Below, piece by piece: positions 9,973-18,570 of a DNA stretch of 47,453 nucleotides (positions within the stretch are counted from its first letter, which is position 1; every line of letters begins with the position of its first letter). The notes beneath the pieces are model-generated. The model saw nothing but the letters and a program-made list of their open reading frames with translations. It did not search any database and had not been told where the DNA came from. The stretch lies in the NCBI GenBank assembly GCA_001600635.1, contig BCKL01000018.1, positions 1 to 47,453 of the forward strand, read 5' to 3'. The stretch is from Leucosporidium creatinivorum (taxonomy: Eukaryota > Basidiomycota > Microbotryomycetes > Leucosporidiales > Leucosporidiaceae). Position numbers and translations under genes: made by a program.

Positions 9973-10856
9973 CTAACGGTGAGCACCTCCTCCCTCGCCG
10001 CCAGAGTTGGAAGGGTTGCGGTGGAAAGGGTGACGGATGCGGTGAGCGATCCTTCCGACACGGCTGCGGGACCTCGAGCGCACAGCACCGGCCTCGCCTT
10101 CTGCTCAGGGTGGTAGACCAAAGTCAGCGAGCAACTTCGGCGATGAAAGGCTCGGCGAGGGAGCGGACTCACGAGGAGCAGTGGGAGGAGCGGGGGGCGC
10201 GGGAGGCTGCTGCTGCTGTTGGGCGCGAGCGCGAGCCGCCCTATGGAACTCCTCGTCTTGCTCTGCGTGCCGTACGGTCTGGTCAGTGGTCTTGCTGAGA
10301 CGAAGCAGGAGCCAAGACCGAAGCGACCTACGAACTCGACGACGCGATCTCTCGCCATGCTGCAGCATCTCCATGCGCTCTGAGAGTACAAAATTCAGTC
10401 CGAGCTTCTCTATGCTGCGCTCCGAGGAGCTACGCACCTAGTTCCTCGTCGACAGTCCCTCCAGTGGGAGCCCTGCGACGCTCGGCGGGGATCTCGGGCT
10501 CACGGCCGACAGCGGTATCGTCGGAGGCTGCCGAGCCCTGCAGAGTAGATCCTAGATAGAAGGTAGTCAGTCCTAAGCACGTCAGCTCCGAGTAAAGAAC
10601 AGCACACCTCCGTACGATTGGCCGCTCATCGGACGCTCGGTCGAAGCTTTGAGGTACAGAGTCAGCTCCCGAGAGTTCTCTGCTGTATACCAGGTCGAAT
10701 CCTAGCAGACTTACCCCTTCCAGCACCACCTGTAAGGCAACACGGTGCCATCAGCTCGATCCATCTCGCCTCTCCGCTCCCCCAGCTTCAGCGCTACTAC
10801 TCACCAGACTGAGCGGTAGCAGGACGAGAGCCGGCCTGAGAGTTGCGGTTCGACAT
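9973..10856 (-). CDS. Small basic low-complexity protein, unknown function
   Basis: I do not recognise this protein. The reading starts at ATG (complement of 10854-10856) with MSNRNSQAGSRPATAQSG, crosses a 15-base exon (10715-10729), and continues as a Ser/Gly/Arg-rich segment into GREPEIPAERRRAPTGG and TVDEELERMEMLQHGE. A charged helix (TDQTVRHAEQDEEFHRAARA) is followed by polyQ, a Pro/Ala run and a very basic tail (RSRSRSRVGRIAHRIRHPFH) ending GGGAHR-stop at 9973-9975. Length is about 170-185 residues. The join near 10310-10340 is uncertain: it can be read through, or as a 45-base intron. Consistent codon phase across five junctions supports a real gene. The basic, disordered character suggests nucleic-acid or membrane-surface binding, but that is a guess. 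Confidence 0.55.
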
Positions 10857-11486
10857 TGTAGTGCTATACGACGACGATCAAAGACGAGACGAGGACAAGC
10901 AGAGAGACGTGGGAGAAAGAGAAGCGAGGCGAGCTTTCGACCTGAGCTCGTCGAGCCGAGTCGTCCTCGAGGTCTTCCCACTGCGATTATGTAGTGCAGC
11001 TTGGATTTTGTATAGCTATACAAAAGTTGTGCTTTTGCTTCCAACTCGCGCAGACAGCAGAAGGGATGACTCTGCCGTCTACGCGAGCAACTTTTGATCT
11101 CGGTGCTCGGCGTTGACTTGCTGGCGCTGCAGGCGAGGAGCTGACGGGGTCGGGGTCTTCCTTAGAGTGCAACGACGGACTTTCTTGAAATAGATCCCGC
11201 TTCTAGCGTTGTCGAACTTGTACTACAACGATCTGCAGGACTACGATCCGCTTGCTCCTCTTCGCCGAACTTGTCCCTTCCCGCCAGTCTCGCTCTATGT
11301 ATGTCTCAGCGCTTGCGCTTGGCTTTGATAGGTCGAATCGGCATTTCTTGCTTACCTACAGCCTCATCTCGAGGCGTGGTCAGCAGTTGCCTTAAGGAGC
11401 CTGATCCGAAAGAACGCGCGAGGAGGCCGAGCTCTCTCACCCTTCGACCATATCTCGTCTCGAAGCAGCCAGCGATTCAGCAGGAT
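10857..11486. promoter_or_regulatory. Divergent promoter region, small unknown gene / macrodomain-sirtuin
   Basis: The two genes are transcribed away from each other across 630 bases. An ATG at 11301 is in frame with the macrodomain-sirtuin gene, but it lies inside a possible leader intron of about 63 bases (GTATGT at 11298 to CTACAG near 11360). Nothing else is recognised. Confidence 0.45.
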
Positions 11487-13746
11487 ATGCCACCCCTCTC
11501 AAGCTATTGCGACTTGATCGACCTCTCCCCTCCAGTAGCAGAAGGTCGACCAACAACTTCAGCGGAGGCCCAGCTCGAAGCTCTTTACTACCTCTACACC
11601 GAATACGCTGGAGGAGATCCGGATGCACACATCCCTGCACCTCACGAGCTCTCCCATCAGCCCTCCTCCAGACGGGCTCAACTTGTGCGGGATCTGCTCA
11701 CCATTCGCGACCCCCAAGAAGGTCCGCTGCCCGACAAGGTCGTAGAGGCGCTGGAAGCAGGATTGGAGAGCAAATCAAAGAACAGTCCTGATCCCTTGGT
11801 GCCCGTCGAGGGAGTCAAGAGCGTGGCAGAGGAGCTGTTTCCTCAAGTCGACTCCGCCGAGCTCCCGCCTCACTTCGACAAGATCGCCCTCTGGAGGGGA
11901 GACATCACCCGCCTAGCCTCGCCCAAGCTTGCTATCGTCAACCCTGTAGGCTTGTTCGCCTACGCTCGAAGCCATCGACAGCGTCGAGGCTCGCTCGGCG
12001 GAGGCGGTCTGCCATAGTCGGCGCGGAGCCACACGGCTTGCTACGTTGGATCATGTCTTGACCTCTTGCTACTTTCCTACAGGCCAACACTCGCATGCTC
12101 GGCTGCTTCCAACCTTCTCATCTCTGCGCCGACAACGTGATTCACGCTGCTGCTGGACCAAGACTTCGGCAGGACTGCTACACCATCATGGAGTCGACCG
12201 GAGAGTCAGTAGATGCTGGCATGGGTGTCTCAGTAGAGCGAGCGCTGACTCCTCGGCTTCGCAGATCCGATCTCGACGTTGCCGAGCCCCTCGTCACGAA
12301 AGGGTGCGCTCTTCCAGCAGGCTACGTGCTCCATGTCGCTGGACCGAAGCTGGAGCGAGGAGCTGAGCCGACCCGAGAAGAGCAAAAGCAGCTCGAGCGG
12401 GCGTATCAGAGCTGCTTAGACCTTAGCGCCGAGGTGAGTAGAGCTCTCCCTTGCTTCCCCTTCCGCCGAGATAACGCTGAGCCCTCTCGCCGTCGCACAG
12501 ATCGGAACCATCGATACTGTGGCTTTCCCCTGCATCTCGACCGGCTTGTTTGCCTACCCCTCTGGTCCCGCTGCCGAAACCGCCATCTCGGTCGCCCTGC
12601 GCTGGCTCGCTTCTCACCCCTCGACACCTCTCCGCATCATCTTCGTCCTCTTCTCCTCCTCAGACGCCAATCACTACCTCTCCGCCATCTCTTCTCTCTA
12701 CCCTTCTCTCCCTCCACCAAAACCGCTCGTCAAGCATTTTGCCCTGCCCGAGCACGTCCAGCAATGGGTGCGGGAGGCGGACAGCGTAATCATCCATGCT
12801 GGTGCGGGACTGAGCGCCGATGCGGTCCGAGACGAGTACGGGATCGGGCTCGACTACAATTCGAAAGAGCTCTTCAAGAAGCTGTACCCCGATCTTTTGA
12901 CGTCGACCGAGATGCGGACGCTCTACCAGTCGATCGGCTACCAGTTCAATGATGTGAGTGGAAGAAGCCCTTCTTTCTCCCCTCGCTTCGCCATCTCGAG
13001 CCTGCACTGACCCTCTCTCCCTTCTACAGCCCCTCGTCAAGTGGGCCTTCATCCTCGCTCACGGCGCTCGGGTGCTCTCGTGGGGTCAAACACCCGTCTA
13101 CACCCTCCTACACCAACTCGCCAGCACTCGCGCCGCTTCCACTGACTCCACTCCCTCACCCTACACCATCCTCACCTCCAACGCCGACCAACTCTTCCTC
13201 CAATCCTCCTTCTCCGCCGAGCGGATCCACAACCCTCAAGGCTCCTACTCGCACTTCCAATGCCTAAAGCCCTGCTCTCCCACCTCCTTCTTCCCCTCGG
13301 AGCCCTACTTTCTCGCCGCCAAGCCCCACCTCTCTTCCTCCAACATGCGCATCCCTCCTTCGCTCGCCTCGGATCTTATCCCTACCTGCCCCAACTGCGG
13401 CGGCGAGGTCTTCCTCAACGTCCGAGGCGGTGATTGGTTCCTCGATACGCCTCAAGCAGGTCAACGCGCTCGCTACAACGCTCAGATTGCCTCTCAAGTC
13501 GAGGCAGCTCGCTCGGCGGGGAGGAAGGTGCTGCTCCTCGAGCTTGGAGCGGGGTTCAACACGCCCTCTGTCGTTCGGTGGCCGGGAGAGAAGTTGTGTG
13601 AGAGAAGTGGAGGAGAAGTGAGGATGGTGAGGGTCAATCTGGCGCATCCTGAGGTGCCGGAGGAGTTGAAGGAGAAAGGGTGGGCCGAGGGAGTGAGGAT
13701 GGGCGCGTTAGACTTCTTGCAGACGGTCCTGGAGGAGAGGCAATAG
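11487..13746 (+). CDS. Macrodomain-SirTM fusion (zinc macrodomain plus class M sirtuin)
   Basis: Two ADP-ribose enzymes in one chain. After a helical lead (residues about 1-125, including RAQLVRDLLTIRDP), the macrodomain runs from KIALWRGDITRLASP through AIVNPANTRMLGCF to YVLHVAGPKL and FPCISTGLFAYP. It has the Cys-His-Cys zinc set and following Asp in GCFQPSHLCADN (12101-12136), typical of bacterial zinc macrodomain hydrolases. The sirtuin half follows: IIHAGAGLSADAVRDEYG, then TSNADQLF, IHNPQGSYSHFQC, KPC and CPNCGG. The catalytic His of ordinary sirtuins is replaced by Gln in the NPQGSY block, as in SirTM enzymes. Zinc Cys pairs are present. Four introns were read (11946-12082, 12205-12264, 12434-12500, 12954-13029), each giving exact frame and motif continuity. 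By analogy with the bacterial pair it may add and remove ADP-ribose on a lipoyl-type or other carrier; the fungal target is unknown. Stop 13744-13746. Confidence 0.87.
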
Positions 13747-14131: not shown

Positions 14132-16054
14132 TTAACACCACCCAATCTCATACAACCGATAGCTGCCCTCGTCCGCCCTGCCCACGCCCTTCTCCCTCCC
14201 CAACTCCCTCATCTTCTTGATGCCCACCCTCCAAGCCTCGCCCTCCTGCCTCTCCTCCAACTCTTGCGCAAGAGGGAACACCTCGGCGATAGAAGCGATG
14301 GCGGCGGTGTGAGTGGGGCGGAGGGGGACGATGAGGTGGAACGCGGGTGCTGGGGGTTCGATAGCTGGTGGGGTTTGGATGCCGGTGGGAAGAGGAGGGG
14401 GAGAGGTAGCCGAGGAAGAAGGAGGGGAGGAAGGCGCCGAGGGGACGTTCAAATCGAGCTCCTCCAGCGCCTGCAGGCTCAGAGGTGCAGGCTGAACAAT
14501 CTGAGAACCCGAGTACGAGGTGCTGGGATTCGGTCCGCTATCGCCCTTGGAGTTGGGCTTGACGAGGAACTGCTCAACGCAGGACTTGAGCCACTTGGCA
14601 TGCTCGGGTCCGTACACCACATCCGCCGCGAGGATGGTATGGAACGGCTGATCGAAAGGCGCAGGCATGGTCGGCGAAGTCGCTGGAATAGCAGGGGACA
14701 TGGGCGCTCCTCCTGGTCCATTGAGCGGGGTAGAGGGGGCGGAGGAAGGGAAAGCGGTAGCGAATTGGCGGGAGGAGTGAACTGCTTGCCAGTCGAGGTG
14801 GTGGGCTGCTACGGGGGGAGTGGAGTGTCCCGAGGAGGGGGCGGAGAGGGAGGTGGAGGCGCGAGGGACTGTGGCGCTGGGACGGGCGTCGGCGGGGAGG
14901 AAGGGTGGGGAGGAGAGAGGTGAGGTCGAGGGAGAGATGGAGGGTGTGTTGGTCTTGACGTTGAGTCGGAGGTTCTTGAGGACGTCCTGTGTGGTAAACA
15001 AAAGTCAGCTTTCAATCTCGGCCGAGGCGGAAGAAGTTGCAAGAACCCACCTCGTGGAAGTCGGTCGCAATGACCTCTCCTAGGGTAGCTCCCTGCCGCT
15101 CACTCATCCCCTTCCACACCAAGGACAACAACCCTGTCCCTGCACCCAACTCCAACGTCCTCAACCCCCCACCCTCGGTCTTCTCATTCGGCACTCCAAA
15201 CTCGTCTGGATTGAGGCAGATCAACCTCGACAGGATGATGGAAGATCCCCAGGACTGGAGACCGACGGAAGTAGGGTCGAGGGAGGAGGGGAGGGCGTCG
15301 TTGAGGGTGATGAGGAGGGGCTCGGAGGAAGGGGGTTCGGCGGAGGAGGTGGGAAGGAGGAGAGGGCGGAGGATGGAGCCTGAGGCTGTGGGGGCGTAGA
15401 AGAGAGGGAAGAGTGGTCAATCGATGTGATCTCTTCGCTCGGCTTATCGCCCTAGCTCGAGTCGTTGGAAGGCGAACCGAGTGCGAAACGTGCGGTTCGG
15501 TCAAGGTCGAGCAGCTCTACACGAGAGCTGTACGGGGACAAGGGGGAGCAAGTGACTCACCAGAAGTTTCAGTCAAAGCTGCTACGAGAGCGCCCGCCTG
15601 ATCTACGACCTGCAGCCGTTGCTTGCGCTCCTTCTCATTCGGGCCATCCTCTGTCTCGTCCAATTCGTGTACCCAATCCTCTGCTCTGCGAAGGAGCGAG
15701 ACGAGCCAACTCTTGGTCCATCCTCGTTCGAACTGTGGTGCAAAAGGTGAGTTGGAAGTGCTAGGAAGAGAGAGCGAAGGAGCCCACCTGAGATTCTGCG
15801 CCGAGAGGGTCAATTTCGAGTTCGTCCACCTCCTGGGAGAGGGTAGCGGTGTCTGTAGTTTGTTGAGCAGGTGGGGTAGTAGCGTATAGAGATGATAAAT
15901 GGTTGACTAGTCTTAATAATTCGGTCGAGTCCAAGTCGGAGTGAGAGAGGTTGCGAGGAATCTTTGGGAGGATGGCCGTAGGGAGCAACGGTTGCCGGGT
16001 CAGAGTAGAAGAGCGCGGTCGAGTAGGGGTAGATGTAGATGTAGATGTAGCCAT
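14132..16054 (-). CDS. Family 16 protein-lysine methyltransferase, Efm2-like
   Basis: Seven-beta-strand SAM-dependent methyltransferase of the METTL21/Efm group, whose members methylate lysines in elongation factors and chaperones; annotated homologues are often called nicotinamide N-methyltransferase. Four exons: 15788-16054, 15561-15732, 15051-15385 and 14132-14986, joined by introns of 55, 175 and 64 bases. The N-terminus begins [10 protein letters not shown] and carries a helical region ([20 protein letters not shown]). Before the core comes [15 protein letters not shown]; motif I is [14 protein letters not shown]; post-I is [17 protein letters not shown]; the catalytic-type ADVVYGPEH follows, then FHLIVPLRP. 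The core is split by two long Ser/Pro-rich inserts, one right after LRLNVKTN and one before FHLIVP. The substrate is inferred only at family level. Confidence 0.75.
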
Positions 16055-16254
16055 TTAAAAAATGTCGATTAGAGCGAGAGAAATGCAGAGTAAAGAGTGG
16101 TAGAAAGCAGAGAAAGATGGAAGAGCGACAATCTCTCTCGACCCGCGCTTCTCTCTTGATTCGACTTGGCCGAAAACGCGTCGTCTTTCGGGGCTTAGAC
16201 TGTCGCTCGTCATTGGTGTCTCAGCCGAGTGCTATCGACCTACAGTACAGGCAA
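16055..16254. promoter_or_regulatory. Divergent promoter, methyltransferase / SLX1
   Basis: Two hundred bases separate the two divergent start codons. An ATG at 16117 is in frame with SLX1 and would add 46 residues. I prefer ATG 16255 because the extension has no conserved feature. Confidence 0.5.
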
Positions 16255-18570
16255 ATGGCCCGAGGGAGGTCTATATCCCCTCCTCGACGCTCTGTATCTG
16301 TATCGCCTACTCCAACGCCTTCTGCTACACAATCTAGTCGATCTACCGTGTTGAACCATTCAATTCCCCCTTTTTATGCTTGCTACTTGCTCAAATCCAT
16401 CAACCCTAAACGCACTCAAACGTACATTGGATCAACTCCTAACCCTCCTCGTCGCATCAGGGAACACAACGGTCTACTACAAGGAGTGAGCTGTCTCTCT
16501 CTCAGCTCTCGTAGATCGCCACTCACTACTGCTGCTGCTCAACAGGGCGCCTTCAAAACTCGCTTGGGCAGACCATGGGAGCAAGAACTAATCGTCTACA
16601 ACTTCCCCACCAAACTACAAGCCTTACAATTCGAATGGGCCTGGCAGAACCCCGACAAGTCGCGTCTCCTTCGCCGAGCAGCGCCCTTACTCCCTCCACC
16701 GCCTGCCAAGGCCTCCAAGACCAGCACCAGCACCACCAGCACCACCAGCACCAAACCAGCCGCCAAATCCACGGCCGCCGCTCCCCCCGCCCAATTCCCC
16801 CGGCACGCCCTCTCCAACCGGCCCCTCACCAAGCTCCAAGTCCTTCAATACATGCTCACCACCCCCCCTTGGTCCTCCTTCGACCTACAGGTCCTCCTCT
16901 TCTCCTCCGAAGCTCAGACCTGGTGGAACGACGCGCGCAGATTAGGGCCGACGATGAGGACCGAGGCGGGGGCGAGGAAGTGGGAGAAGGAGAAGGAGAG
17001 GGCTAAAGTGGGGGATTTGGGGGATGCGTGGGAGGAAGGAGGGAGAGGAGAGAGGTTGGATAAGGTCAAGGTGGAACTGAGGAGGGAGGGAGTGGATGGG
17101 GAGAGGAGGGTCAGGATTGGGGAAGTCGGCGCCGAGGCTTCGATTGGCGAGGGAAGGGAGGAGAGAATTAGGGTGGACGATGGCAAGTACAAGCTCGGAT
17201 GATCTTACAGAGTACAGCTGACGCTCTCCTACACAACACAGACGACTTCTTCCTCGCCCACTGGACCAAATGGAACGCCTTGACCGAATCGACCTTTACG
17301 CCCAAGTGCGCCATCTGCACCGAGCCCGTCAATACGGAGGTGTGTCGACCGTCTCTTTTTCCTTCTTCTTTGCTCTCCGGCGAAGCGATGGACACGTCCT
17401 CGCCCCATTGTTCGCTCGACTCGTCACTGACTTCTCGTCGCTTGCTCGCTCTCTTCTCGTCTCTTCCGCCTTCAACACGAACAGGACCACCTCTCCTTCC
17501 TCCTCTGCACCTCTACCTCCCCAGCCGAGCCATGCCTCTCCGTCACCCACCCGCGCTGCCTCGCCTCCCACTTCCACTCCTCGCCCTCCACCTCAGGCTC
17601 CTCTCCCTCGAATTCCACTTCAAACCCACTCAGCACAGCCATCCCCCTGCTCCCCACCACCGGTCTCTGTCCCTCCTGCCAAACCACGCTCCATTGGCAG
17701 GATCTAGTCAGAGGGAGCTATAGGAGGAAAGAGGAGAGTGAAGGCAAGAGGAAGAAAAGGACGGGAGTGAAGAGAGTGAAGAAGGTTAAGGGTGGAGAGT
17801 TAGAGGAAGTTGAGGAGGAGTTCGAGGATGAGGAGGATGTGAGTGAAGACTTGGTGGGAGAGAAGGAGGGAGGCAAGAAGGTCGTCAAGCCGAAGCCGAA
17901 GCCGAGGAGCAAGTCTACCACCGCCAAAGCCCGCTCGCCCGTCAAGAAATCCACCACCACCAAAGCCAAATCCCAATCCAAAGCCACCGCCTCCCCTCCG
18001 TCCTCCTCCTCAGACGAGCGATTCGACCTCACCGACCTCTCCGCCGCCGAGGACTCGGACCACGAGGAGCAAGAGCGGTCGTGGGCTCAGTCTGCAGCGC
18101 AGGAGGGCGCGTTCGTTGGAGGTTCGGGCTCGGATGGAGAGGAGGAGGTGTCGGATGTTGATTTCGATGATGAGGAGCTGGGAGCGGGAGCGGGAGCATC
18201 GAAACGGAAAGGCGCGCGCAAGGAGAAGCCAGCGCGGATCAGAACTTACGCCCCCTCCTCACCACACCAACTTGCTGCGTCTCCTCTTCCCTTCACCACT
18301 TCCACCACAGCTCTCCCCCCGCCTCGCAACCCCTCCTCCCTCGCCTCCTCCAGTCGCCTCAACTTCGGCTCGACCAAGTCTTCTCTCTCCTCCTCCACCG
18401 TCTCCGCCAAGCCGTCAGCAGCACTAGGAAGGAAACCTCGAGCCAGCCCAACGAGCAGGGCTTCCCCGATACGAGCGGTCAAGGCGGGCTCGGCGAAGGC
18501 GCTGGCTGAGAAGGAGAGGAAGGCGGGGAGGAAGGAGAAGGAGGTCATTGAAATCTCGGATTCGGATTGA
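16255..18570 (+). CDS. SLX1: SLX1 structure-specific endonuclease subunit with long tail
   Basis: GIY-YIG nuclease that, with SLX4, cuts branched DNA such as 5' flaps and Holliday junctions in the nucleus. The N-terminal domain shows [27 protein letters not shown] and, after an intron at 16486-16545, [22 protein letters not shown], in the family order. The C-terminal RING-like zinc region follows: CAICTEP, then [20 protein letters not shown], then [16 protein letters not shown]. To reach it, the reading needs a GC-AG intron at 17183-17241 (donor GCAAGT), then a normal intron at 17340-17484. After the zinc region a further 270-odd residues form a Lys/Arg-, Ser- and acid-rich tail ending EVIEISDSD-stop at 18568-18570. 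Ordinary fungal Slx1 proteins end soon after the RING. No in-frame stop separates the tail, so I treat it as part of the gene. Confidence 0.9.
17183..17241 (+). other. GC-AG intron in SLX1
   Basis: The donor is G|GCAAGT and the acceptor ACACAG, 59 bases, with GCTGAC inside as branch site. No GT donor in the preceding 150 bases gives the phase needed for the next exon, which encodes [11 protein letters not shown] ahead of the RING cysteines. GCAAGT is the usual donor consensus of GC-AG introns. Confidence 0.75.

Follow-up and report, generated by a model that had tools for sequence, protein, structure and literature searches.

Class M sirtuins (SirTMs) have been reported from both fungi and bacteria (PMC7050489, PMC12700824). 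The names SirTM and Mfs1 date from 2015, the latter given to the fungal frames in which a macrodomain is fused to a SirTM (PMC4518038), and Mfs1 has also been described in Candida albicans (orf19.2285), Aspergillus, Entamoeba and Phytophthora (PMC4518038, PMC11490716). The structure of one such fusion, Foc1Mfs1 from Fusarium (PDB 8RSN), was solved in 2024 (PMC11490716). In prokaryotes the extended SirTM operon carries GcvH-L and LplA partners (PMC4518038). According to PMC11490716, zinc macrodomains, defined by a Cx4HxC motif, remove ADP-ribose with Zn2+ as a Lewis acid and are the sole known hydrolases cleaving cysteine-linked ADP-ribose; the same source leaves the physiological substrate of Mfs1 open. 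C. albicans strains deleted for Mfs1 grew better in H2O2 (PMC4518038). The fusion was therefore already known, and an earlier note on the DNA analysed here had been correct in reporting it from fungi (PMC4518038, PMC11490716). Among the paper titles listed in a literature search, none was on a basidiomycete Mfs1; a printed report is possible. The new elements are the occurrence of the gene in this genome, an insertion in its NAD loop, and the disagreement of its two halves on their bacterial kin.

The gene lies in the window (the whole stretch of 47,453 nucleotides that was analysed), at the start of contig C18 of the Leucosporidium creatinivorum genome (27.7 Mb, 63 contigs), and was the only Mfs1 copy found in that genome. 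One further macrodomain match was seen at C1:596384-596632. As read from the sequence, the gene codes for a zinc macrodomain followed by a SirTM in one predicted polypeptide, with the junction inside a single exon. It is very probably a member of the Mfs1 family, that is, a self-contained enzyme of reversible mono-ADP-ribosylation, the activity being predicted. The span proposed in the earlier note, 11487-13746 (+), was confirmed: the start is the ATG at 11487, the last base of the stop codon is 13746, and five exons and four introns give 639 residues:

11487..11945, + strand: exon 1, residues 1-153; covers the N-terminal helical lead and the first part of the macrodomain, through the NP of NPAN
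12083..12204, + strand: exon 2, residues 154-194; zinc loop
12205..12264, + strand: putative in-frame intron, 60 nt (GTCAGT...GCAG); phmmer scores rise on its removal
12265..12433, + strand: exon 3, residues 194-250; macrodomain
12501..12953, + strand: exon 4, residues 251-401; end of the macrodomain, linker and start of the SirTM
12693..12749, + strand: linker between the two enzymes, residues 315-333, inside exon 4, placed from the domain limits
13030..13746, + strand: exon 5, residues 402-639 plus stop; remainder of the SirTM

Three of the introns split the open frames and are bounded by GT and AG. Since the fourth (12205-12264) keeps the frame and contains no stop, we had to infer it, and a reading based only on frames leaves it in. 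Seven candidate in-frame introns were present there; this one was picked by eye on the basis of its GTCAGT donor, CTGAC branch-like site, CAG acceptor and fit to relatives, and was the sole one scored. Its excision closed a 20-residue bulge in the protein and raised the phmmer scores from 312.6 to 330.5 bits against 8RSN and from 111.5 to 125.7 bits against 5KIV. Codon-usage scores, obtained on the model still containing the 60-nt intron, were 0.18 to 0.23 bits per codon for the exons in their own frames versus at most 0.07 in the other forward frames (0.19 in exon 1, with the same ceiling of 0.07 for its remaining forward frames). The splice sites of the model are those that we infer from these features.

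An in-frame ATG at 11301, which would add 62 residues and perhaps a mitochondrial presequence, was rejected, weakly, as the start: the extension scored 0.012 bits per codon versus 0.19 for exon 1, an out-of-frame ATG sits 4 bases 5' of the ATG at 11301, and the Foc1 chain aligned with the 11487 start. The extension has no acidic residue among its first 32. The upstream frame opened by the out-of-frame ATG (11297-11395) might reduce translation from 11301. Farther upstream, a perfect 20-nt palindrome, TTTTGTATAGCTATACAAAA (11006-11025), is located between the Mfs1 gene and an apparent minus-strand gene starting near 10856. Its 16-nt core occurs once in the 27.7-Mb genome, and the palindrome could be a regulator site of a divergent promoter.

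The window contains 46 frames of at least 180 residues, four of which are Mfs1 frames or overlap them. Pfam hits were obtained in 8 of the 20 frames scanned among those of at least 180 residues: Vts1-like, RmlD/epimerase-like, peptidase M49, SLX1 (two frames), ABC transporter (two frames) and syntaxin; no Rfam family reached its gathering score within the window. The frames at 16051-18567 (+) match the SLX1 nuclease in its GIY-YIG and C-terminal domains and are probably one gene. A phenylalanine ammonia-lyase segment had 1T6J and 1Y2M as its nearest PDB entries, which we take to be the enzyme of the red yeast Rhodosporidium; taken with the shortness of the introns, this would suit a Pucciniomycotina basidiomycete, though it is no proof.

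The whole predicted protein matched Foc1Mfs1 over residues 54-620 with an E-value of 2.3e-97 (phmmer), a match to a solved homologue that excludes chance. The SirTM half alone matched 8RSN (E 2e-42) and SpySirTM (PDB 5A3A, E 1.5e-16), and no further distinct PDB sequence at E up to 0.01. For the macrodomain half, the zinc macrodomains of PDB entries 8RSI, 5KIV, 8RSL and 8RSM were matched better than MacroD1. Pfam detected the macrodomain alone (PF01661, E 3.2e-22, on a previous model that still included the 60-nt intron). An ordinary sirtuin was rejected, since the SirTM half hit only the two PDB sequences named above and PF02146 has 9 places in the genome, on six other contigs and none on C18. 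These solved-family matches, together with the conserved catalytic residues described below, bear out the proposal of the earlier note that a macrodomain and a class M sirtuin share one polypeptide.

It is extremely improbable that two separate genes were misread as one, with macrodomain and sirtuin on different transcripts. The prokaryotic genes are indeed separate, the SirTM frame lying apart in all 50 loci that have one among the best 80 analysed; here, however, the junction (12693-12749) is inside exon 4, without a splice site or the stop between the halves that the earlier note had named as evidence against its reading, and the solved structure 8RSN shows this layout on one chain.

The residues of both halves of this putative Mfs1 were compared with 52 other aligned rows: 50 prokaryotic loci (taken from the best 80 of at least 578 confirmed matches), Foc1Mfs1 and the S. 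pyogenes pair. The macrodomain features were:

12104..12127, + strand: zinc motif CFQPSHLC (Cx4HxC), residues 161-168; three ligands invariant in 52/52 other rows
12131..12145, + strand: Dx3H catalytic dyad DNVIH, residues 170-174; Asp in 52/52 and His in 51/52 other rows
12531..12560, + strand: diphosphate-binding loop with the active-site arene, CISTGLFAYP, residues 261-270

The zinc-site residues Cys161, His166, Cys168, Asp170 and His174 were all kept, in agreement with the Cys-His-Cys set plus Asp that the earlier note had recognized in GCFQPSHLCADN (residues 160-171). The NAAN motif reads NPAN, with both Asn retained and Pro at the second position in one of the 52 other rows. In SauMacro the zinc loop is supported by Arg42 and Asn46, and Foc1 has Cys61 at the Asn46 place; about 75% less zinc co-purified with Foc1 than with SauMacro, and zinc fell further when Cys61 was changed to Asn (PMC11490716). 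The corresponding residues of the window protein are Arg68 and Thr72. Across 80 rows this second position was Asn in 62, Thr in 15 (window included), Ile in 2 and Cys in 1, and of the 14 bacteria that come closest in the joined tree described below, 11 have Thr. The likeness of the N-terminal lead to that of the bacterial zinc macrodomain, put forward in the earlier note, could be compared at two positions, the Arg being kept and the Asn replaced by Thr; from residue 54 onward the lead, which in zinc macrodomains of the MacroD type is a three-helix bundle, aligned weakly with that of Foc1.

The sirtuin features were:

12801..12818, + strand: GAGLSA, start of the NAD loop
12819..12845, + strand: DAVRDEYGI, containing a seven-residue insertion; NAD-loop segment of 21 residues versus 14 in 52/52 others
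13180..13182, + strand: Asn452, equivalent to the catalytic Asn118 of SpySirTM; Asn in 51/52 other rows, the exception being the Foc1Mfs1 PDB chain with Ala
13237..13242, + strand: Gln471-Gly472, the QG that class M sirtuins have instead of HG; Gln in 52/52 other rows
13261..13398, + strand: structural zinc Cys pairs CLKPC (13261-13275) and CPNC (13387-13398)
13423..13425, + strand: Arg533, equivalent to Arg192 of SpySirTM; Arg in 47/52 other rows
13546..13566, + strand: GAGFNTP, corresponding to the class M motif GVGx[NT]TP but with Ala at the Val position

Two readings of the earlier note, Gln instead of the catalytic His within NPQGSYSHFQC (QG at residues 471-472) and the presence of two Cys pairs, thus hold. 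The alignment check that it had proposed for the zinc and catalytic residues revealed no loss of a zinc ligand or of the equivalents of Asn118, Gln137 and Arg192, each of which inactivates SpySirTM when mutated (PMC4518038). Asn604 (Asn258 of SpySirTM) and all four sirtuin zinc Cys were also retained. The second position of GVGx[NT]TP was Val in 33, Ser in 9, Ala in 6 and Ile in 4 of the 52 other rows, and looks looser than the motif implies. Two less conserved ligand contacts of SpySirTM differ: Leu occupies the Phe42 place, as in 18 of 53 rows (window included), and also the His259 place, which is poorly conserved. SirTMs are further marked by protein ADP-ribosyltransferase activity without deacylase activity and by a genetic link to a macrodomain, a link present here as the fusion.

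The seven-residue insertion could affect the writer. It maps between the equivalents of Ala34 and Phe42 (numbering of the 5A3A alignment), two SpySirTM residues reported to contact the amide of nicotinamide (PMC4518038). A missed intron was rejected as its source: 21 nt is too short, and a longer excision would delete the GAG motif. One consequence might be an eraser with an impaired or altered writer, in which the insertion blocks productive NAD+ binding or makes the SirTM half an NADase, leaving mainly an ADP-ribosyl hydrolase; the lengthened loop, differing from all 52 relatives, and its place between residues that hold nicotinamide are consistent with this. We consider it unlikely, however, because decay should show as a loss of catalytic residues, and those whose mutation inactivates SpySirTM are kept here, together with the equivalent of Asn258. 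Neither Asn is present in the PDB chain of Foc1Mfs1: it reads TSAAD (versus TSNAD here), so that its sirtuin half is without the catalytic Asn, the Ala at the Asn118 place being native or engineered, and it has Gly at the Asn258 place. The Leu at the Phe42 place, shared with other rows as noted above, also argues against impairment.

For the preferred reading, in which both enzymes act, a sequence of steps can be proposed from the family. The SirTM half would bind NAD+, release nicotinamide, assisted by Asn452 and the pair Gln471/Arg533, and transfer ADP-ribose to an acceptor residue of a target. The N-terminal zinc macrodomain would remove the mark: Zn2+, coordinated by Cys161, His166 and Cys168, would act as the Lewis acid, Asp170 would position the distal ribose, and a phosphate of the substrate itself would serve as the base. 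With both activities on one chain, writer and eraser would always be co-produced, and NAD+, zinc occupancy and oxidation state would set the balance between them, which agrees with the oxidative-stress role reported for Candida Mfs1. Features that weigh against this reading are the NAD-loop insertion, the Leu residues at the Phe42 and His259 places (both variable among relatives), the Thr at the zinc-loop support and the NPAN. By analogy, the enzyme is expected to act as a stress-linked ON/OFF module on one chain.

Its target could in principle be GcvH or an E2 subunit, that is, a mitochondrial protein carrying lipoate, by analogy with GcvH-L, the target in staphylococci and streptococci. The genome does contain a GcvH match of canonical type (two exons on C1) as well as matches of lipoate-ligase type (C17 and C7). 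We regard such a target as quite improbable. The statement of the earlier note that no lipoate or GcvH gene is nearby was correct, none of those three contigs being that of the window (C18); the sole in-frame N-terminal extension usable as a mitochondrial signal looks non-coding; and published Mfs1 zinc macrodomains left ADP-ribose on SpyGcvH-L (PMC11490716), which makes GcvH a weak candidate.

A scan of genome contigs with the macrodomain alignment gave at least 595 stretches, at least 578 of them confirmed, and the best 80 loci were analysed. The fused single-frame version was present in none of these 80. A SirTM frame was found in 50 and the macrodomain alone in 30, counts in which a SirTM beyond the flank would be missed; in full 10-kb loci among the latter, such as L017, L022 and L023, the eraser may lack a writer. 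The order macrodomain then SirTM was seen in 36 of the 50 loci having both, and in 14 of 14 in the group of bacteria that the joined tree places closest. Four phylum samples (counts include the central genome) were also searched: Chloroflexota (301 genomes around L082) at E≤1e-15, and Actinomycetota (396, around L014), Pseudomonadota (398, L051) and Cyanobacteriota (292, L020) at E≤1e-26. Among the best candidates scored in these samples, none of the match rows spanned the greater part of both halves; the one reaching farthest past the junction (G186, Chloroflexota sample, query 59-354) had two internal stops. Some loci carried several sirtuin frames: L095 (G186, of the same phylum as the L082 genome) has three separate SirTM-profile frames next to its zinc macrodomain frame, which would fit a broken or split sirtuin gene, L118 has two such frames, and a Methanobrevibacter locus (L032, 5479-7673) has one zinc macrodomain frame followed by two SirTM-like frames.

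SirTM/macrodomain pairs were found in Streptomyces, Nocardioides, Vibrio maritimus, Corallococcus and Competibacter. These are soil or water bacteria. Their pairs weaken the published wording that SirTMs occur predominantly in pathogens.

In the joined tree (53 rows), Foc1Mfs1 was the sister of the window protein (98/98), and 14 bacterial pairs, mostly from environmental bacteria, shared a group with these two (100/99); among the loci sampled, the nearest pair was L082 plus L020 (95/86). Either fungal SirTM half alone had exactly the same 14 bacteria as neighbours (98 and 99). The macrodomain half alone placed the fungi next to L045 (81) and not next to the 14. In macrodomain-only analyses (83 rows), a tree constrained to unite the fungi with five Methanobrevibacter scored 18.5 log units better than the quick free tree (p-AU 0.807), whereas fungi plus the 14 bacteria as one clade was disfavoured (p 0.022), the 14 not forming one clade there. 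The macrodomain data therefore agree with the report that fungal and archaeal zinc macrodomains are sister groups (PMC11490716). The union of fungi and Methanobrevibacter was rejected by the SirTM half (53 rows, four Methanobrevibacter, p 6.9e-5) and by the joined alignment (p 0.0047), which did not reject fungi plus six Actinomycetota (p 0.269). These trees are to be read with the facts that the branches of both fungal SirTM rows are long and join each other, and that 10 of the 53 joined rows, seven among the 14 bacteria, have an odd letter make-up. The macrodomain rows L016 and L018 were left out, being of the same species as L017 (L016 matches the two others at 246 and 244 of 250 positions).

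As the two halves disagree on their bacterial kin, no donor conclusion was drawn. The idea raised in the earlier note, that the fusion came in as a unit from bacteria, found no evidence (0 of 80 loci fused, among the best 80 of at least 578). A read-through fusion after transfer would be simple, given the macrodomain-then-SirTM order in 14 of 14 loci of the nearest group and 36 of 50 overall. A more speculative and rather unlikely scenario is that the pair came from an environmental bacterial operon, was fused after arrival, and with the NAD-loop insertion gave a regulated or repurposed basidiomycete branch of Mfs1; if so, the writer might, for instance, be gated by the loop, or NAD+ might be consumed without a protein target. 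The disagreement of the halves and the lack of a fused prokaryotic version in the samples make the origin testable with more fungal genomes.

Compared with known systems, the putative Leucosporidium Mfs1 shares the PF01661 fold family and the Dx3H dyad with MacroD1/2-type macrodomains, but has a zinc loop in place of their glycine-rich catalytic loop (PMC11490716). With the prokaryotic operons (SauMacro 5KIV, SpyMacro 8RSM, MorMacro 8RSI, SpySirTM 5A3A) it has in common both enzymes and the same catalytic residues; the bacterial and archaeal frames are separate in 50 of 50 two-gene loci (from the best 80) and fused here. The extended GcvH-L/LplA2 operon differs further, since in this genome the GcvH matches are on C1 and those of lipoate-ligase type on C17 and C7, with the window on C18. 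Foc1Mfs1 has the same domain order on one chain, the same zinc motif, QG and Cys pairs; identity is 49% for the macrodomain and 35% for the SirTM half, and the window gene differs in its seven extra NAD-loop residues, its NPAN and its Thr where Foc1 has Cys61. As 8RSN was the sole fungal Mfs1 in the PDB searches, the window gene, with its catalytic Asn kept, offers a useful natural comparison.
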